From positions 1-33,683 of the forward strand of contig JAKITD010000029.1 in NCBI GenBank assembly GCA_021648265.1: a stretch of DNA of 33,683 nucleotides. The letters are read 5' to 3'. Positions within the stretch are counted from its first letter, which is position 1. Every line of letters begins with the position of its first letter. Source of the DNA: Flavobacteriaceae bacterium. Lineage in GTDB: Bacteria; Bacteroidota; Bacteroidia; Flavobacteriales; Flavobacteriaceae. This document shows, piece by piece, positions 1,725-32,400 of the stretch. The translations under genes were made by a program, and so were the position numbers. Below the pieces are notes generated by a model. It was not told the origin of the DNA, made no database searches, and saw only the letters and a program-made list of their open reading frames with translations.

Positions 1725-1732
1725 TAATTTTG
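1725..1732 (+). promoter_or_regulatory. Probable -7 element of micro-ORF 1
   Basis: TAATTTTG fits the Bacteroidota -7 consensus TAnnTTTG. It lies 47 nt before the ATG of the 33-aa ORF. The preceding bases (CAATTATTT then GC) also precede the matching element of the second micro-ORF at 7147-7154, so the two promoters look homologous. No good TTG -33 box is present. Confidence 0.45.
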
Positions 1733-1779: not shown

Positions 1780-1881
1780 ATGAGAACTTTAAACAGTAAT
1801 CGATTGACAGAAACCCAAAGAAAAACTAAAATTTTTATTTGGAACACTAAAAGACGCTTTAGAACCTTGAGTACTCCCTAA
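1780..1881 (+). CDS. 33-residue cationic micro-protein, copy 1
   Basis: A short ORF from ATG at 1780 to TAA at 1879-1881. It starts MRTLNSN, ends KRRFRTLSTP, and carries nine Lys/Arg against one acidic residue. A second 33-residue ORF at 7273-7374 is identical at 20 of 33 positions with no gap. Seven of the identical residues (T3, N5, L9, K17, N22, R26, L30) use different synonymous codons, which is what selection on the peptide would leave. Conserved features are the MRTLNSN start, LT at 9-10, F19, W21-N22, K24-R-R-F27 and LST at 30-32. It is flanked by its own TAnnTTTG promoter and a strong terminator, so the transcript should be about 180 nt. There is no signal peptide. I know of no function; RNA or ribosome binding would suit the charge but is speculation. 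Confidence 0.7.
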   Translation: MRTLNSNRLTETQRKTKIFIWNTKRRFRTLSTP

Positions 1882-1888
1882 AAAAATG

Positions 1889-1923
1889 AAAGCCACGGAT
1901 TTTAATAAATTCGTGGCTTTTTT
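1889..1923. terminator. Bidirectional terminator between micro-ORF 1 and the oxidoreductase gene
   Basis: A perfect 9-bp stem (AAAGCCACG at 1889-1897, CGTGGCTTT at 1912-1920) is followed by T's on the plus strand. On the minus strand it is followed by a C-A interrupted T run. It sits 7 nt after the micro-ORF stop and 22 nt before the end of the convergent gene at 1946, so it can serve both. Confidence 0.85.
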
Positions 1924-1945
1924 AATTTTTAATACTTGTTATTAT

Positions 1946-2950
1946 TTATTCTTCAATTACTTTTAAAACTAGCTTTCCTAATTTATCTCCTGAAAATAAT
2001 CGCAAAAAAGTATCGTGAAAATTTTCGATACCAACGTAAACATCTTCTCGGCTTTGTAGTTTTCCTTGCATCATCCACATTCCCATTTCTTGAGCAGCAG
2101 TACTGTAATCTTTTGTGTAATCTAGCACTACCATTCCTTGCATTGTAGCTCTATTTACCAATAAAGATAAATAATTTTTTGGACCAATAACATCTCCTGT
2201 GTTATTATATTGCGAGATAGCTCCACAAATAACCACTCTTGCATTTAATCGTAATTTACTAAGTGCTGCATCTAAAATTTCACCTCCAACATTATCAAAA
2301 TATACATCGATTCCTTTGGGACATTTTTCATTTAAAGCATCCATTAAATCTTCCGATTTATAGTTAATAGCAGCATCAAAACCTAGTTCATTTAAAATAT
2401 AGTCACATTTTTCTTTTCCACCAGCAATTCCAATAACCGTACATCCTTTAATTTTCGCAATTTGCCCCACAATACTTCCAACAGCTCCAGCAGCTCCAGA
2501 AACCAAAACAATGTCGCCTTCTTTAATTTTTCCTACTTGCTGAATTCCAAAATAAGCGGTCATTCCTGGCATTCCTAAAGCTCCTAAATATTTAGGCATT
2601 GGCACTAGGCTATCATCTACTTTATAACAGTTTTCACCATTGGTTGTTAGGTATTGTTGGACTCCACCCCAATTTACAATACAATCACCAATTTTAAAGC
2701 CTGGATGATTATTTTCTTTAATTACTTTACCGATGCTTCCCGCTCTCATTACTTCTCCAATTTCAACTGGAGGTATATACGATTTGCGATCCATCATCCA
2801 ACCACGCATAGCAGGGTCTAATGAAATATAATGAGTTTTTATAAGAACCTCGCCTTCTTTTGGTTCAATAATAGGATTTGTTTCAAGTTTCCAAGTATCT
2901 TCTTTTGGTAATCCTTCTGGACGTTTTACTAATATTAATTGTTTGTTCAT
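1946..2950 (-). CDS. NADP-dependent oxidoreductase, MDR superfamily (curcumin reductase / LTB4 dehydrogenase-like)
   Basis: 334 residues with the start taken at ATG 2950 (MNKQLILVKRPEG). The frame runs 11 codons further upstream only to a TTG, and those residues match nothing in the family. The N-terminal GroES-like domain (1-120) carries SLDPAMRGWM, the usual signature of the zinc-free medium-chain reductases. The Rossmann domain has SGAAGAVG at about 151-158, the AxxGxxG cofactor loop, followed by YFDNVGG at about 225. Family members reduce alpha,beta-unsaturated ketones and aldehydes with NADPH in the cytosol; the real substrate cannot be read from the sequence. The length matches the family. 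It is divergent from the hypothetical gene at 3046 and convergent with micro-ORF 1. Confidence 0.88.
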   Translation of the reverse strand: MNKQLILVKRPEGLPKEDTWKLETNPIIEPKEGEVLIKTHYISLDPAMRGWMMDRKSYIPPVEIGEVMRAGSIGKVIKENNHPGFKIGDCIVNWGGVQQYLTTNGENCYKVDDSLVPMPKYLGALGMPGMTAYFGIQQVGKIKEGDIVLVSGAAGAVGSIVGQIAKIKGCTVIGIAGGKEKCDYILNELGFDAAINYKSEDLMDALNEKCPKGIDVYFDNVGGEILDAALSKLRLNARVVICGAISQYNNTGDVIGPKNYLSLLVNRATMQGMVVLDYTKDYSTAAQEMGMWMMQGKLQSREDVYVGIENFHDTFLRLFSGDKLGKLVLKVIEE

Positions 2951-3045
2951 TTTCGAAAAATTTATGGGTTGAATATACCACAATTTACAGTGGCTTTTAG
3001 GACAATCATTTTCATAAAAACTATTTTTTTCGTAAATTTACACTT

Positions 3046-3471
3046 ATGAAAAAGTATCAAGAAATCGAAAAATTAAAATCGATTTTCAAAAAGAATGGTA
3101 TTCAAATAAAACGTTTGAAACGTGCTAATTTTGAAAGTTTTGTACTCGCAGAAATTACAATCAAAAATCAATCATGGAAAATCTATATCGATGATGAATA
3201 CGGAGATTTCAGCAAAGACAAACCACTTGTAGCATTTTATTTAATGTTGTTTTCTTTAGATGTATATCACGATAGTTTGGATTATTTAGATTGGTGCAAT
3301 CAAAACAAAATAAACGGCTCCGATTTAAAATGGTTAACCTATTATAAATCACTTGAAAAATCTTATTTCGAGCTGAAACAAATTTTAGGGGATTTGGACC
3401 CTTGTATCGATTCATTTGACTATCAAATTAGGAATGGAGTTATTGATGCTTTATTTGCTTCAGAAGTTTAA
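3046..3471 (+). CDS. Hypothetical protein, 141 aa
   Basis: A soluble 141-residue protein with no signal peptide or membrane segment. The N-terminal 20 residues are Lys-rich. The rest is rich in aromatic residues and Asp (IYIDDEYGDF, DYLDWCNQNKINGSDLKWLTYYKSL) with a final helix ending FASEV. I do not recognise the family. It starts 95 nt from the divergent oxidoreductase and lies 60 nt before the acyltransferase, so it could be co-transcribed with that gene. The codon use and the well-formed alternating pattern make it a credible gene, and its role is unknown. Confidence 0.65.
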   Translation: MKKYQEIEKLKSIFKKNGIQIKRLKRANFESFVLAEITIKNQSWKIYIDDEYGDFSKDKPLVAFYLMLFSLDVYHDSLDYLDWCNQNKINGSDLKWLTYYKSLEKSYFELKQILGDLDPCIDSFDYQIRNGVIDALFASEV

Positions 3472-3531
3472 TAAACTATAATATAGGTTATATTTGTAAA
3501 TACCTTAATATTGATTTTCCTAGTATAATTT

Positions 3532-4608
3532 ATGAAGATATTACCAAACCTAAACCCATTACGTTTTCTGTTAGCTTGTTTAGTTATTATTTTTCATGTT
3601 CCACAATTATGCAAGAACCAAGGGCTTCCATATTTTGATATGGCTCCAATATTTCATAAAGGAGTTGAAGCTGTTTATATGTTTTTTGTTTTAAGTGGAT
3701 TTCTAATTATCAGGTTAATATATCTTTCAAAAATGAATGATTCCTTTTCAATAAAGAACTTTTATTTTAGAAGAATTCTCCGCATTTTTCCTTTGTATTA
3801 CCTCATCGTATTTTTTGGATTCTTTTTTTATAATGTTTTATTACCATTTTTAAACATTCCGTTTCCTATTAATTATGATTTAAAAACTGGATTATTAATG
3901 ACTGTGTTTTTTATACCAAATATTTTTATACAATACAGCCCTGGAGGAATACTCGAAGTTCTTTGGTCTATTGGGATTGAAGAACAATTTTATATTATCA
4001 TTGCACCATTACTATACATAATTCGGAAAAATTATATCTTTAAATCACTATTAATTATTAGCTGTTGCTACTTTTTAATATTTCATTTAGACGTATTCTA
4101 TTTACTTAAAAAGTATCAATTTGTTTATTTTTATATGCTTTCTGGAGGTTTAATCGCTATTTTAGAAGAAAAGAATAAATTGGTTTTATTGAAAAACAAT
4201 AAGTCCCTGTCAATTATTATTGTTATAAGTACTCTCCTGTTTTTTACGACGAATGTATTTGATTTTGAAAATTTATTTACTTCAAATTTAATAACCTGTC
4301 TATTATTTAGCTTATTTATTTATACAATTAGTTTTGCAAATCATAATTTTGAGGTTAAAAGTAAGTTACTTAATTATTTAGGGAAAATCTCTTACGGAAT
4401 CTATATGTATCATGTTATAGCATTAAATATTATAGTTTACATTCTCTTAAAATTTGATTTTACAAACATCCCGAATTTTATACCCATACTATTAATCAAT
4501 TTATTAACAATAGTTCTTACAATAATAATTTCACACTTTTCATATCAATATTTTGAAAAATATTTTTTAAAATTAAAAGAAAAATATAGAGAAAAAACAA
4601 TTAAATAA
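3532..4608 (+). CDS. Acyltransferase-3 family membrane protein (OafA/YrhL-like)
   Basis: 358 residues, highly hydrophobic with about ten predicted membrane helices. The N-terminus shows the family hallmark: LNPLRFLLACLVIIFHV with the likely catalytic His22, then GVEAVYMFFVLSGFLI, and a basic loop FYFRRILRIFPLYYL. A WSIGIEEQFYI segment follows near residue 150, and NYLGKISYGIYMYHV near residue 285 is the conserved late helix. Family members move acetyl or other acyl groups onto extracytoplasmic sugars such as O-antigen, capsule or exopolysaccharide. The acceptor here is unknown and no glycan cluster surrounds it. The C-terminus is a short Lys-rich cytosolic tail with no SGNH domain. An Ntn hydrolase gene follows after 55 nt. 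Confidence 0.87.
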   Translation: MKILPNLNPLRFLLACLVIIFHVPQLCKNQGLPYFDMAPIFHKGVEAVYMFFVLSGFLIIRLIYLSKMNDSFSIKNFYFRRILRIFPLYYLIVFFGFFFYNVLLPFLNIPFPINYDLKTGLLMTVFFIPNIFIQYSPGGILEVLWSIGIEEQFYIIIAPLLYIIRKNYIFKSLLIISCCYFLIFHLDVFYLLKKYQFVYFYMLSGGLIAILEEKNKLVLLKNNKSLSIIIVISTLLFFTTNVFDFENLFTSNLITCLLFSLFIYTISFANHNFEVKSKLLNYLGKISYGIYMYHVIALNIIVYILLKFDFTNIPNFIPILLINLLTIVLTIIISHFSYQYFEKYFLKLKEKYREKTIK

Positions 4609-4627
4609 TAGTTTAACCCAATACGTC

Positions 4628-4649
4628 TAATCTAATATTGATTAGATTA
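4628..4649. repeat. 9-bp inverted repeat just upstream of the penicillin acylase gene
   Basis: TAATCTAAT (4628-4636) and ATTAGATTA (4641-4649) are perfectly complementary around a 4-nt ATTG loop. There is no T run on the plus strand, so it is not a good terminator. It ends 14 nt before the next ATG, which would suit an operator or a leader hairpin. Confidence 0.5.
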
Positions 4650-4663
4650 AATAAATACAACCT

Positions 4664-7051
4664 ATGCGAGTTTTAAAAAAAATACTCAAGTTCTTACTTA
4701 TTATAATAATTGTGATTGCTATCGCTGGTTTTTGGTATTACAATCATTTAAAACCCAGTTATTCAGGAGAAGTCTCTTTAGCAAATATTGAAGCTGAAAC
4801 TACTGTTTACTATGATGATTACGGTATTCCACACATTTATGCAGATAACAGATTGGATGCAACTACAACTCTGGGCTATGTTCATGCACAAGATCGCTTA
4901 TGGCAAATGGAATTAATGCGAAGGATTTCTCCAGGTCGCCTTTCAGAATTATTTGGAAAAGATTTAATTGAAAACGATACCTTTTTTGCTTCTTTAGGAA
5001 TTGATGAAGCCGCAGAAATTTCCATAAGTAAACTCGATAAAAATAGTGAAGTCTATAAAATAATGGAAGCTTATTTAAAGGGGGTAAATCAGTTTGTAGA
5101 TGAAGGGCCAACTCCTATAGAATATACCCTTATTGGTCTTGAAAAAAAGCATTTCGTTATTAAAGACATTTATAATATCATGGGCTATTTATCTTTTAGT
5201 TTTGCAATGGCACATAAAACAGACCCATTATTGAGTGCTTTACAGTTAAAATTAGGAAATGAATATATCAAAGAATTAGATGTTTCTATAAGTCCTGAAA
5301 CGCTTTACATTAAAAATTCAAAACAAGAGGTTGAAAGCTATACTAAAATGCTTTCAAAAATTAACACAATTATGGAAACCAATCCTATTCCTCCTTTTAT
5401 TGGTTCGAATAGTTGGGTGATTTCAGAAGATAAAACCTCCAACGGAAAAGTAATTTTAGCAAGCGATCCACATATTGGGTTTGCTCAACCTTCCGTTTGG
5501 TTTGAAGCACATTTGGTGACTCCCGACTATGAAATGTATGGGTATCATATGGCGGGAATTCCTTTTGCAATGCTGGGTCATAATAGGAATTTCGCCTACG
5601 GAATCACCATGTTTGAAAATGATGATATTGAACTTTATAGGGAAGAAAATCATCCCACAGACAACAACAAATACAAAACTCCAAATGGTTACGAAACCTA
5701 TAAAAAAACTACAAAAACTATCAAAGTAAAAGATGGAGAAGATGTAACTTTTGAATTAAAAAGTTCGCGTCACGGACCAATAATCAATAATACATTTAAA
5801 GGAATTACTGAAGGTAATCCTATTGCAATGTCTTGGATTTATACGCAACTAGATAATAAAATGCCTAATGTTTTTCATTTATTGTCCACAGCAAAAAGTA
5901 TGGAAGATTTTAAAAAAGGTGTTTCTTTGCTTCACGCTCCCGGTTTAAATTTAATGTATGGAGATTCCAAAGGAAATGTTGCTTGGTACGCTTCGGCAAA
6001 ACTATATAAATACAAGAATCACGTAAACACCAAGTTTATTTTAGACGGTGCTTCTGGGGAAGATGATATTGTAAGTTATTTGGATTTTTCAGAAAACCCA
6101 ATGGCTGAAAACCCTGAATGGAATTACGTATATTCAGCTAACAATCAACCAGACAGTATCGCAGGTATGCTATATCCTGGTTATTACATTCCAGAAGATA
6201 GAGCCAAACGAATTACTCGTCTTTTAGAACCTAAAAATAATTGGAATAAAAAATCGGTAAGCGCTATGATTAATGATGTTACTTCGTCTGTGGCTCCCGA
6301 AGTTATCAAGGAATTGACAAATAACATCAACTATAATTCATATAGTAGAAACGAACAACGCGCTATTGACGTGTTACAACTTTGGGATGGATCTCACACA
6401 TTAGATGCCGTTGCTCCTACTATTTATAATAAGTTTATTTATTTGTATATGAAAAATACATTTCAAGATGAAATGGGAAAAGAATTATATGCACAATTTG
6501 AAGAAACTCATTTAATAAAACGTCAAATTGCATTACAAATTCATAAAGAAACATCTGTTTGGTGGGACGATATTTCAACCACTCAAATAACTGAAACTAA
6601 GAAAGATATATTATCTAAAACTTTAAAAGAAACCGTTGCTTCTTTAGAGGTGCAATTAGGAGAAGATATGAATCATTGGGTCTGGAATAAAGTACATATT
6701 TTAGAACATCATCATCCTATAGGAAAAATAGAATCTTTACGAGAGTTTTTTAATGTGGGACCGTATTCTGTTAATGGAGGTTCCGAAGTAATTAATAATC
6801 TTGATTATAATAGAGATAGTACCGGAGTTTATAATGTTGATTCGGGTCCTTCCACTAGAAGAGTAATTGACTTTAGTGATATTGAAAACAGTTTAAGTAT
6901 AAATCCTACTGGGCAATCTGGTAATCCTTTGAGTAAGCATTACCGTGATCAAGCTGAAATGTACAATAAAGGAGAATTCAGAAAAATGAAAATGAATAAG
7001 GAAGAGATTATTAAGGTTTCCACAAAAATTATTTTTATACCAAAAAATTAA
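4664..7051 (+). CDS. Penicillin acylase family protein (N-terminal-nucleophile hydrolase)
   Basis: 795 residues with an N-terminal membrane anchor or signal segment (about 5-25, LLIIIIVIAIAGFWYY). The small-subunit part contains TTVYYDDYGIPHIYA and GYVHAQDRLWQMELMRRISPGRLSELFG, both typical of the family. The precursor should cut itself before Ser248 in GSNSWVIS, which makes that serine both the new N-terminus and the nucleophile. The large subunit then carries SDPHIGFAQPSVWFEAHL and a late NGGSEVINN region. Members hydrolyse amide bonds of beta-lactams, acyl-homoserine lactones or other acyl-amino compounds in the periplasm. The substrate cannot be told from the sequence; quorum quenching and beta-lactam turnover are both possible. 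The length is normal and the frame is intact. Confidence 0.93.
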   Translation: MRVLKKILKFLLIIIIVIAIAGFWYYNHLKPSYSGEVSLANIEAETTVYYDDYGIPHIYADNRLDATTTLGYVHAQDRLWQMELMRRISPGRLSELFGKDLIENDTFFASLGIDEAAEISISKLDKNSEVYKIMEAYLKGVNQFVDEGPTPIEYTLIGLEKKHFVIKDIYNIMGYLSFSFAMAHKTDPLLSALQLKLGNEYIKELDVSISPETLYIKNSKQEVESYTKMLSKINTIMETNPIPPFIGSNSWVISEDKTSNGKVILASDPHIGFAQPSVWFEAHLVTPDYEMYGYHMAGIPFAMLGHNRNFAYGITMFENDDIELYREENHPTDNNKYKTPNGYETYKKTTKTIKVKDGEDVTFELKSSRHGPIINNTFKGITEGNPIAMSWIYTQLDNKMPNVFHLLSTAKSMEDFKKGVSLLHAPGLNLMYGDSKGNVAWYASAKLYKYKNHVNTKFILDGASGEDDIVSYLDFSENPMAENPEWNYVYSANNQPDSIAGMLYPGYYIPEDRAKRITRLLEPKNNWNKKSVSAMINDVTSSVAPEVIKELTNNINYNSYSRNEQRAIDVLQLWDGSHTLDAVAPTIYNKFIYLYMKNTFQDEMGKELYAQFEETHLIKRQIALQIHKETSVWWDDISTTQITETKKDILSKTLKETVASLEVQLGEDMNHWVWNKVHILEHHHPIGKIESLREFFNVGPYSVNGGSEVINNLDYNRDSTGVYNVDSGPSTRRVIDFSDIENSLSINPTGQSGNPLSKHYRDQAEMYNKGEFRKMKMNKEEIIKVSTKIIFIPKN

Positions 7052-7146
7052 TAGTGATAGCTTAATGTAATTTCACTATTCGCAATATTATAATTCTCAT
7101 GACTGTTAATTTTATGTTATATTTAATATAATCAATTATTTAGCGT

Positions 7147-7154
7147 TAATTTTG
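7147..7154 (+). promoter_or_regulatory. Probable -7 element of micro-ORF 2
   Basis: TAATTTTG matches the Bacteroidota -7 consensus exactly and is preceded by CAATTATTT then AGC, nearly the same bases as upstream of micro-ORF 1 (1710-1732). It lies 118 nt before the ATG, against 47 nt in copy 1. The extra distance is filled by the structured repeat at 7171-7247. Confidence 0.5.
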
Positions 7155-7170
7155 TAACGAAAAAAATGAA

Positions 7171-7247
7171 CTACCTCGACCCAAGGGTACGAGGTATCAA
7201 ATAGGAATTCCTTTTTATTTCGACGCAAGCGTCGGGGAATTAAACCC
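7171..7247. repeat. Structured REP-like element in the leader of micro-ORF 2
   Basis: This 77-nt stretch is much richer in G and C than its surroundings and folds into two compact hairpins, both closed by an AA loop. The first pairs TACCTCG (7172-7178) with CGAGGTA (7190-7196), with ACCC/GGGT stacked inside. The second pairs CGACGC (7221-7226) with GCGTCG (7229-7234). The palindrome AGGAATTCCT lies between them at 7203-7212 and a GGGGAATT...CCC end closes it. The matching leader of micro-ORF 1 lacks it, so it looks like an inserted dispersed repeat. It might still affect translation of the ORF downstream. Confidence 0.6.
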
Positions 7248-7272
7248 TAAAAATGATTAAAACAATAAAGTT

Positions 7273-7374
7273 ATGAGAACATTAAATAGTAATAAATTAA
7301 CAGACAGAACAAAGGCTTCAAAGTCTTTTAATTGGAATAGTAAAAGACGTTTTAATAAGTTAAGTACTTATTAG
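7273..7374 (+). CDS. 33-residue cationic micro-protein, copy 2
   Basis: ATG at 7273 to TAG at 7372-7374, the same length as the copy at 1780 and alignable end to end without gaps (20 of 33 identical). Conservative exchanges dominate the rest (R8/K8, E11/D11, T23/S23). It starts MRTLNSNKLT and ends KRRFNKLSTY, with nine basic residues against one acidic. It has its own TAnnTTTG promoter and a strong terminator 29 nt after the stop, so it is monocistronic. The spacer 7052-7272 otherwise holds only the promoter and the structured repeat. The two copies lie 5.4 kb apart on the same strand with unrelated genes between them, so this is not a simple recent tandem duplication. Function unknown. Confidence 0.7.
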   Translation: MRTLNSNKLTDRTKASKSFNWNSKRRFNKLSTY

Positions 7375-7402: not shown

Positions 7403-7437
7403 AAAAGCTCCTTATAATCAGATTATAAGGAGCTTTT
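7403..7437 (+). terminator. Terminator of micro-ORF 2
   Basis: AAAAGCTCCTTATAA (7403-7417) pairs perfectly with TTATAAGGAGCTTTT (7423-7437) around a 5-nt loop. A 15-bp stem ending in TTTT soon after a plus-strand stop is a strong intrinsic terminator. Confidence 0.85.
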
Positions 7438-29491: not shown

Positions 29492-32400
29492 ATGAAAAAA
29501 CCAAATATAATAGAAAATTTAGGCTTTGAAAGAGCCACTTCTATTAATTTGGATTCATCAAGTTTATCCGAAAGTCAATTATTAACTATTGAGAAAGTAC
29601 AAGGTTTTGATATTGATTCAATTTATTTTTGTACGGACAATCTAAACAATAGTCATCCAGCGGTTTTTTTGAAAAAAGTTACATCTTTTGATACTGAGAC
29701 ATTAAAAGCCATTTCAAACACTCACAAAAAAATATGGAACTATAAAAAAGTAGTTTTTCTATATGTTTATTCTGATACTGAAATTCGCATTTATAATTGT
29801 GCCGAAAAGCCTCTCATTATTTCAAGTGAAAAATTCAACTATCAAAAAGAATTAAAAAAACTTGAAATAAAATCCTATAAATTATCTGATAAAGAAAAGT
29901 TAGAAGAATTAAACAATCTATTCTCTTCCATTGCAATTGATACAGGAATTATTTGGACAATTGAAGAGGCTGAATTAATTAGAAAAAAAATAAATTTACA
30001 AAGGAGAGTTGATAAATACCTTGTAGAAAGTTTAATTAGAACTGCAAAACAACTTCAAAATGAAGGTTTAGAAATTGATTTTATTCATAAAATCATAATG
30101 CGTTCATTGTTTTTGCTTTATCTTGAAGATAGAGGAGCAACAAAAGATTTATATTCCGAAATAAGAAGAGGAGCAAAATCGTATTTTGATATTTTAGACA
30201 ATGTTGAAGATACTTACGCTTTGTTTGAGAAATTAGAAGACTATTTTAATGGTAATGTTTTTACTTTAGGAAAAGGAGAAACAATAACAGTAAAGCAACT
30301 TCAATTAATAAAGAATTGCTTTATTAATGGAAATGATAATACTGCTCAAACTCAACTTTTTAATGATAGGCTTTTTGATTTTAAAATAATTCAGATTGAA
30401 TTGTTAAGTGAAATATATGAAAATTTTCTTTCAAAAATAAATCCTGATAAAAAAAAGAAAACAGGAACGCATTACACTCCACCTTCTTTAGTAGAACTAA
30501 TCCTAAATGAAAAATTACCCATAAACAATAAAGAAACTGCGTATAATGTAAAAACATTGGATCCCTCTTGTGGCTCAGGAATTTTTTTAGTAGAAAGTTT
30601 TAAACGCTTAGTAAAGCGTTATGAGAATAATCATAAAATCGAAAAACTTACAGATTTTAAAATTCTGTCAAAACTTTTAACAAGTAATATATTTGGAATT
30701 GAAATAGATCCACAATCAATTAAAGTAACTGCTTTTAGTTTGTACTTAGCATTAATTGATGAATTAAACCCTAAAACATTTTGGCAAAATAAAAACTATA
30801 GACTTCCTTATTTAATTAATGACCTTGAAGATGATTTATTGAAAAATAAACAAGGAAAAAACCTATATCGTAGAGACACCATAGAAACAAATAGTAAAAT
30901 TGAAAGTATTGAATTTGATTTAGTTGTAGGGAATCCACCTTTTGGCACTAAAGACTTACTTCCATCAATTAGAGATTATAGCGATAAATATGGCTTTGCT
31001 AAAGAAATGGTTTTGCCGTTTCTACATAAAGCAGCTCAATTTTCTAAAAAGGGAGAGATTGTTCTTATTTTTAATACAAAAGTTTTAACAAATACAGGCG
31101 GGACATATCAAAAGTTTAGAAAATGGCTTTTTAATGATTGCTATGTAGAAAAAATATATAATTTTTCTATTTTACGAAAAGTACCAAAAGGTTTTGGTGG
31201 TCAATTATTTGGTTCTGCAACAGGACCAATAAGTATTGTTTTCTACAAAAAAGAAAAGCCAAAAAACCCTTCTAAAACAATTTTATATTACGCACCTAAA
31301 ACATTTATTAAATCTAATGTAATCGAAGGTGTTAGTATTGATAGTACAGATGTTAAATATCTGCCGATAGAAGAATGTCAAAAGCCAGATACAAAAATTT
31401 GGAAAGTTGCAATGTGGGGCGGAATGAATGACTGGAATTTGATTAATAAAATAGGTGATAAATTTGAATCCAATATTTATAATTACCTGAAAATAAACCA
31501 AAATAATTTCTCTTTTGGTTCAGGTTTACATTCGCCTTCAAAAAAACAAATTTTAAATAATAAAATATTTACACCAAAAAAGGTTATAAATCTAAGGAAA
31601 GTAAAAAGATACTATACAAACGAGAATAGTATTGAGAATACTAATAAAACTTTTCGCTTAATTGATGATACTATTTTTAAACCGCCTTTTATTTTAATAA
31701 AAGAAGGACAAAAAAATAAAGAATACTGTGTTAGTTTTATTGACTACAATTCATTTCATACAGGATATAGTATCTCACCTAAAAATGAAGACAATATAGT
31801 CTATATTAAATTATGGTGTGCTTTAATAAATTCAAGATTTGCTAAATATTTTTTATCTCTAACATCTTCTTCTTGGGGTATTGAAAGAGAAAGAGTTCAA
31901 GCAAATGAAACTTTAACACTTCCTTCATTAAATAATATTGATAAATCTAATTTAAAAGAATTTGAATTGCTCTTCAACGAATTAATTGTTTCTCATAAAA
32001 ATGATTTAGCAATAGATACTTTTGAATTGGAAAATAAAATAGATTCATATTTATTAAAAAATATATTAAAATTAACAAAAAATGAAATAAATAGTATCAA
32101 TGATATTATAGATTACTCTCTTGATTTACTTGAAAATAAACACAAATCAAAAGCACTATTCCCTGTGTTAGAATTAGGAGTAATAAATTATGTAAACTTA
32201 CTATCTGAAAGATTAAATCACTTCCTTGAAAACCAAAATTTATTCGCAAACGCTACAATATTTAATTTAAGCAGATTTTCACCCTTAATGATGATTAAAA
32301 TTTCCTTTAGTAACACAAAAGAAGAAATAAAAAAACCAAAAGAAAGTATTGAATCTGAGTTAAAAAAAATAGACGAAAAACTATGGGAAGAAAAAGCAAC

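Follow-up and report, generated by a model that had tools for sequence, protein, structure and literature searches.

Two 33-residue cationic micro-genes on a Flavobacteriaceae contig belong by homology to a larger and often tandemly arrayed micro-protein family

The stretch of DNA analysed here, referred to as the window, comprises 33,683 nt of contig JAKITD010000029.1 from the Flavobacteriaceae assembly GCA_021648265.1 and carries two plus-strand open reading frames (ORFs) of 33 codons, which we call copy 1 and copy 2. Both lie at exactly the positions where an earlier note, made from the letters of this DNA alone, had placed them (Table 1). As that note described, their peptides align without gaps and share 20 of 33 residues, seven of the identical residues (T3, N5, L9, K17, N22, R26 and L30) are encoded by different codons, and the net charge, given there as about +8 and calculated as K+R-D-E, is +8 in both. 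Since the two copies find each other within their own genome with an E value of 1.3e-7, and homologues occur in 50 of 149 Flavobacteriaceae genomes, own genome included (copy 2 as query, E<=0.01, one genome per genus), a chance origin of the ORFs is excluded. Judged by this homology, the window ORFs are members of a family of 28-33-residue cationic proteins carried by many marine Flavobacteriaceae. One further match there (G000 C93, E 1.06) looked like a third copy but was rejected as chance, having a stop codon inside.

Table 1. Positions of the two micro-genes and of the features around them in the window
Feature	Position	Strand	Basis or comparison
Copy 1, 33-aa micro-gene MRTLNSNRLTETQRKTKIFIWNTKRRFRTLSTP	1780..1881	+	ORF list; orthologue L218 in sister genome G873
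Copy 2, 33-aa micro-gene MRTLNSNKLTDRTKASKSFNWNSKRRFNKLSTY	7273..7374	+	ORF list; syntenic orthologue L063
TAATTTTG, possible sigma-A -7 box, copy 1	1725..1732	+	kept in L218
TAATTTTG, possible sigma-A -7 box, copy 2	7147..7154	+	kept in L063
GTAAC, remnant of ECF-type -35 element, copy 2	7154..7158	+	followed by N16-CGTC in L063; window without -10
81-bp repeat element at expected -10 region, copy 2	7168..7248	+	multi-copy in own genome; absent from L063
Terminator-like hairpin after copy 1	1888..1921	+	folding
Terminator-like hairpin after copy 2, short T run	about 7403..7437	+	folding

The pair of 33-codon ORFs spotted by eye thus proved real, yet it is the edge of something larger: the "duplicated family" of two genes proposed earlier is a true family, although not a pair, being large, often tandem and most commonly 28 residues long. 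The homologues outside the own genome for which the note had called were found in number, which leaves the coding reading standing. A DNA pattern scan of named genomes returned at least 117 loci, and 111 of those listed fit the family rule and are called named loci below; they are mostly titled Flavobacteriaceae, among them Winogradskyella, Aquimarina, Psychroserpens, Aequorivita, Algibacter, Hyunsoonleella, Gelidibacter, Ulvibacter and others. The six of the 117 listed loci that do not fit the rule (L035, L041, L043, L092, L110 and L131) stand outside our counts; L041 resembles a true member, while L043, L110 and L131 are titled as other groups. Among 216 distinct peptides, whose lengths are biased for the named loci because the pattern fixes the distance from start to TGG, 189 are 28 residues long and 21 are 29, while lengths of 33 and 31 occur in four and two, respectively; net charges range from +4 to +9. 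Loci of the family-level search, which carries no such constraint, keep the same register with the exception of one deletion variant. The common form has 28 residues and ends in WNSKRRYR, and the 33-residue length of the window copies represents a C-terminal extension of it.

Both window peptides fall gaplessly into register with 36 relatives at the MRTL start, at W21-N22 and at K24-R25-R26-[YF]27. M1, T3, W21, N22, R25 and R26 are invariant in this alignment of 38, with R2, L4 and K24 nearly so, and the conserved aromatics and cationic nature noted for the pair hold across the family. Variants of 19-24 residues adjoining the arrays lack the middle or the start and retain the WN.KRR[YF] end, a pattern suggesting that function resides in the C-terminal end. 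Profile searches beyond the family matched 10 of 395 genomes at the order level, all of the same family and own genome included, and 5 of 395 at the phylum level, own genome included, where the sole match outside the family was partial (E 4.2e-4); up to 21 candidates were scored per genome in the rows shown and the genomes differ from those of the family-level search, so the absence elsewhere is not a firm one.

The earlier note had named a ratio of nonsynonymous to synonymous change (dN/dS) well below 1 as support for a coding reading. We find a dN/dS of about 0.26 (pS 0.43, pN 0.15) over 3293 pairs from 232 distinct sequences, the pairs differing at 3-20 of 84 nt and not being independent of each other. 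This value indicates purifying selection on the protein, and by this substitution pattern the micro-genes appear clearly selected as proteins. A closer comparison is offered by the sister genome, the NORP82 metagenome-assembled genome (G873; NVUT01000018.1), in which each window copy has an orthologue. Between copy 1 and L218, 83 of 84 core nt are identical, as are 203 of 228 nt upstream and 10 of 16 aligned tail nt; for copy 2 and L063 the figures are 80 of 84 in the core, with three synonymous and one nonsynonymous change, 18 of 18 for tail plus stop, and 165 of 195 downstream. The C-terminal tail is therefore poorly kept in copy 1 and fully kept in copy 2. We also observed that R25 is encoded by AGA in 211 and R26 by CGN in 191 of the 232 distinct sequences, which may reflect ancestry or a constraint at the nucleotide level. 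Conserved RNA structure was dropped as an explanation, as none emerged when 60 of 142 units were folded, each as the ORF with 40 nt of preceding sequence (mean z 0.10).

Most family members lie behind what resembles a stress-type promoter, of the extracytoplasmic function (ECF) type. Among 132 distinct upstream regions 150 nt or more in length, 114 have GTAAC-N16-CGTC in the 110 nt next to the first copy; any spacing from 14 to 19 was permitted, and every match had 16. For the named loci alone the figure is 95 of 109 upstream regions. As background, 57 of 9085 110-nt windows placed arbitrarily across the loci, with the arrays counted in, contain the motif. Further upstream, a direct repeat [GT]TTAA-N4-6-GTTAA accompanies 103 of the 114 motifs (background 122 of 20,776 windows), and a palindrome adjoins the -35 box in 84 to 89 of 114, depending on which of two patterns is used, with its half-site CA[ATC]AGTAC present in 102. 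The palindrome ACTWTGYNWTRCAWAGTA was considered as a regulon-wide operator and rejected, as four genomes hold only one site each and the own genome none; every one of these sites immediately precedes an ECF-type promoter with a micro-gene behind it, and the one in G149 reads on both strands. Two of the regions that lack the promoter motif within 110 nt, L026 and L130, carry it farther upstream, before a shortened copy. The ECF-type promoter is a common feature of the family, not a defining one.

Via this motif we reached an ECF sigma gene in the own genome, which is of the PG0214/GFO_1088 type (NF058625, 227 bits against a cutoff of 130) and adjoins a small gene without family match in the place of an anti-sigma factor and a GFO_1090/DUF4252 gene (NF058626). 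One matching sigma gene is present in 17 of 18 genomes tested (1e-25). GTAAC/CGTC with a spacing of 16 precedes 16 of these 17 orthologues, a count that includes the own genome, whose motif site led to the gene, and the remaining one reads CGTG. Arrays and the sigma's own gene share the same -35, -10 and spacing, and from this shared motif we infer that the PG0214-type sigma controls the arrays. On contig C5 of G076, sigma orthologue and array were observed about 6 kb apart (133203 and 139389). According to the excerpted account of Porphyromonas gingivalis (PMC10101095), PG_0214 to PG_0218 show raised levels in a PG_0686 mutant relative to its parent, and more so under peroxide, with PG_0214 raised about 3-fold without and 10-fold with peroxide. 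These figures, as excerpted, compare mutant with parent and hold no test of peroxide induction, so peroxide control of the sigma was dropped (PMC10101095). Excerpts on Flavobacterium psychrophilum describe a motif, SM6, with a CGT box at -10 that includes an ECF/anti-sigma pair, and promoters with this box, that of the pair included, rise under low nutrients (PMC9723704).

How the window copies relate to this promoter becomes clearer from the sister genome, which contains four members: besides L218 and L063, the counterparts of copy 1 and copy 2, it has a typical ECF-driven pair at another site. A homologue search of the own genome (92% complete) did not recover this pair, and its loss from the own genome is possible. 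In L063, an ECF promoter GTAAC-N16-CGTC is placed at -55 of the copy 2 orthologue. The 81-bp element before copy 2 occurs four times in the own genome at full length and 100% identity, this copy counted, and comparison of the two sequences suggests that copy 2 lost its ECF -10 box to this repeat element while L063 retained the promoter. A partly similar 33-nt stretch covering the end of the 81-bp repeat was also seen at 30761-30793. Copy 1 is without ECF motif in both genomes and keeps TAATTTTG in both, and by its upstream sequence it is probably run by the housekeeping sigma. Of the TAATTTTG promoters proposed for both copies, the octamers themselves are present and kept in the NORP82 orthologues, although they are no rule of the family, and the shared 'CAATTATTT...GC' context before them is not kept there. 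With 12 occurrences in the window where 9.0 would be expected, TAATTTTG is not enriched, and the octamer alone is weak evidence. The proposal that each copy is closed by a strong terminator likewise holds in part: hairpins of about -19 kcal/mol follow both (-19.6 kcal/mol, z -6.6 after copy 1; -19.3 kcal/mol, z -6.3 after copy 2), but the T run behind copy 2 is too short, and its hairpin was missed both by a terminator scan and by our separate terminator test.

Upstream of the micro-gene starts, adenine occupies -3 in 96%, -12 in 96%, -13 in 90% and -6 in 70% of 226 distinct leaders, compared with 46% (-3), 54% (-12) and 42% (-6) at 637 ordinary long-ORF starts, which were called mechanically and are partly misplaced. 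In F. johnsoniae, the excerpted report describes adenines at these leader positions as raising translation initiation (PMC6847099). Many array ORFs and several other genes behind the same ECF-type motif have a repeated AUCAAUCA leader in common, and a stretch of 60 nt upstream contains ATCAATCA for 96 of 228 distinct array leaders (110 of 252 if duplicates are counted), compared with 4 of 641 ordinary ORFs; ATCAATCA was also observed in leaders of non-array genes behind the ECF-type motif (L154, L155, L161, L163 and L167). Such a recurrent leader could suggest that the loci work as a non-coding RNA or an RNA sponge, with the repeated AUCAAUCA leader as the active part and the ORF incidental. 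We regard this as distinctly improbable, because the dN/dS value and the in-frame length variants speak for the peptide, the folded units show no structure, and the motif ATCAATCA is absent from the leaders of both window copies.

More than one copy is present in 59 of the 111 named loci, among matches listed. The largest array considered, L051 of Psychroserpens jangbogonensis (4212-5800), holds nine copies as three tandem repeats of a promoter and three copies, and the same genome has further copies at two more sites, L178 and L179. For 76 of the 147 copies of multi-copy loci the nearest relative is another member of the same array, which suggests old as well as recent duplication. Of the 102 loci whose available sequence sufficed, 56 show a distinct ORF of 42-46 residues that begins no more than 130 nt past the last copy, as compared with 199 of 5000 random places (4%). 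These partner ORFs diverge strongly, and their end is often W-x-G-[ST]-K-R-Y-A-H, reminiscent of W-N-S-K-R-R-Y-R. Both window copies are solitary and have no such ORF behind them. A terminator-like hairpin follows the last copy within 420 nt in 72 of 101 loci, so that many arrays are probably transcribed as units of their own.

Downstream on the same strand, within 1000 nt, 105 named loci show exbD in 27 cases, a histidine kinase in five, a small exported protein in three and an ABC transporter in two; with even the commonest neighbour tested, exbD, at 27 loci, there is no constant downstream target gene. ExbD-like genes behind an array were seen, for instance, in L044, L066 and L102. In L087 (2036-4318), L049, L056, L139 and L140 a micro-gene stands first before a sensor kinase; L049, L056, L087 and L140 have an OmpR-type regulator as well, and GTTAA direct repeats lie upstream of the kinase-linked micro-genes in L049, L087, L139 and L140. 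As a general regulator of the family the kinase/response-regulator pair was rejected, the kinase having been found in only 2 of 20 tested genomes (1e-60).

These neighbours bear on two rival explanations. The micro-genes might be leader peptides whose translation, or stalling on which, regulates the gene downstream: the ORFs are short, their spacing is fixed, the 28-residue form ends in its conserved basic C-terminus right at the stop, and the four kinds of gene just counted do follow some of them. We nevertheless consider this improbable, as the downstream genes vary and most loci have none of those kinds, terminator-like hairpins follow many arrays, copies often stand in tandem, the window copies add five residues past the conserved end, and the ORF region of the folded units is free of RNA structure. 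A role at the surface of the inner membrane, for example as modulators of the ExbD/TonB machinery or of a sensor kinase, has to be taken seriously as a rival, given the ECF-type control and the presence of exbD next to some arrays. The sensor kinases of some loci, the cationic peptide with its invariant tryptophan and the 44-residue partner, modelled as one helix (mean predicted local distance difference test, pLDDT, 81; predicted template modelling score, pTM, 0.38), would fit it too. Neither a signal peptide nor a hydrophobic segment was noticed by inspection, with no tool run, and exbD and kinase adjoin subsets of loci only, which makes an envelope-directed role rather unlikely on balance.

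Database searches did not connect the peptides with any known family. The set of 28-residue sequences had no match at E<=1 in Pfam, NCBIfam or PADLOC and no credible one in PHROG (best 0.068), and searches with the two window peptides gave no match either. For the 44-residue set the best values were 0.011 (one row of A2) and 0.042 (one row of A3) in Pfam and 0.11 in NCBIfam, none of them credible, and the same holds for the best E values of 1.2 and 0.49 against PDB sequences. One majority-rule query found no match in 72,556 plasmid and 50,697 phage records. Rfam reported 0 families at gathering score in the window, a result by which antisense RNA is not excluded. A single literature collection yielded no published description, and the family is apparently undescribed. 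The results also bear on a toxin or antimicrobial peptide, such as a type I toxin-antitoxin system or a bacteriocin, for which small size, positive charge, multiple copies and a variable partner peptide could be cited. Type I toxins are hydrophobic, while the micro-proteins are polar and basic by inspection of the alignment, with no hydropathy tool used, and show no secretion signal on inspection. Clustering the flanking ORFs of 32 loci revealed no recurrent immunity- or export-like neighbour, an ABC transporter comes next in only 2 of 105 loci, and PHROG, PADLOC and the mobile-element records add nothing in its favor; a toxin is thus very improbable.

With little better than even confidence, we read the family as stress-induced cationic proteins that would use the C-terminal WNxKRR[YF] to engage an anionic partner, for which RNA or the ribosome is the likeliest candidate, the ECF-driven arrays being its typical form and the window copies divergent ones. 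A typical locus would consist of an ECF-type promoter with operator-like upstream sites, followed by one to nine genes of about 28 residues and, in about half of the loci, by the distinct 42-46-residue peptide gene. The PG0214/GFO_1088-type sigma would activate the arrays in response to envelope, oxidative or nutrient stress, a multiplicity of copies together with strong leaders would provide a high peptide dose, and the peptide would act in trans via its W-N-x-K-R-R-[YF] end. By their sequence the micro-proteins appear cytoplasmic, and RNA or ribosome binding is favored because the basic-aromatic end is conserved and inspection shows neither membrane segment nor signal peptide.

Several observations weigh against this reading. 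The promoter motif is missing within 110 nt from 18 of 132 upstream regions, those of both window copies among them, and the window leaders carry the adenine pattern in part only, copy 1 with A at -3 and -6 and T at -12, copy 2 with A at -6 and -12 and G at -3. G001, G014, G021 and G025 possess the sigma and gave no micro-gene match in the family-level search, and other ECF sigmas may read the same motif. AlphaFold2 models consist of low-confidence helices too weak for a fold search, and the evidence would fit an RNA, ribosome, DNA, membrane or protein target alike. A more elaborate version, in which the arrays form a peptide-based post-transcriptional arm of the ECF stress response, with peptides dosed by gene number that bind ribosomes or the AUCAAUCA leader via WNxKRR[YF] and feed back on the regulon, is a long shot in our estimate.

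If the stress-induced, partner-binding reading is true, many marine Flavobacteriaceae carry a dose-tuned micro-protein behind a stress-type promoter. The family would then offer a concrete handle on the role of a poorly understood Bacteroidetes ECF sigma as well as a test case for the tandem expansion of micro-proteins.

Among known systems, the micro-proteins may be likened to FbpA, FbpB and FbpC of Bacillus, which are short, basic, induced through a stress regulator and presumed helpers of RNAs; FbpABC is not known to form tandem arrays. For the regulator behind micro-gene and kinase in a subset of loci, the best NCBIfam model is RprY, an OmpR-type response regulator, from which the L087 regulator differs in scoring 233.5, below the equivalog cutoff of 370, and the kinase was not found in 18 of the 20 tested genomes at 1e-60. 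The own-genome order of sigma gene, small gene and DUF4252 gene is the same as that of PG0214-PG0215-PG0216 in the excerpted description of Porphyromonas (PMC10101095). In the excerpted SM6 promoter selection no small cationic protein appears, and one putative RNA, Rfp11, is listed (PMC9723704). Compared with the PG0214/GFO_1088-type regulon, of which SM6 may be the F. psychrophilum counterpart, the micro-gene arrays add direct repeats and a palindrome.

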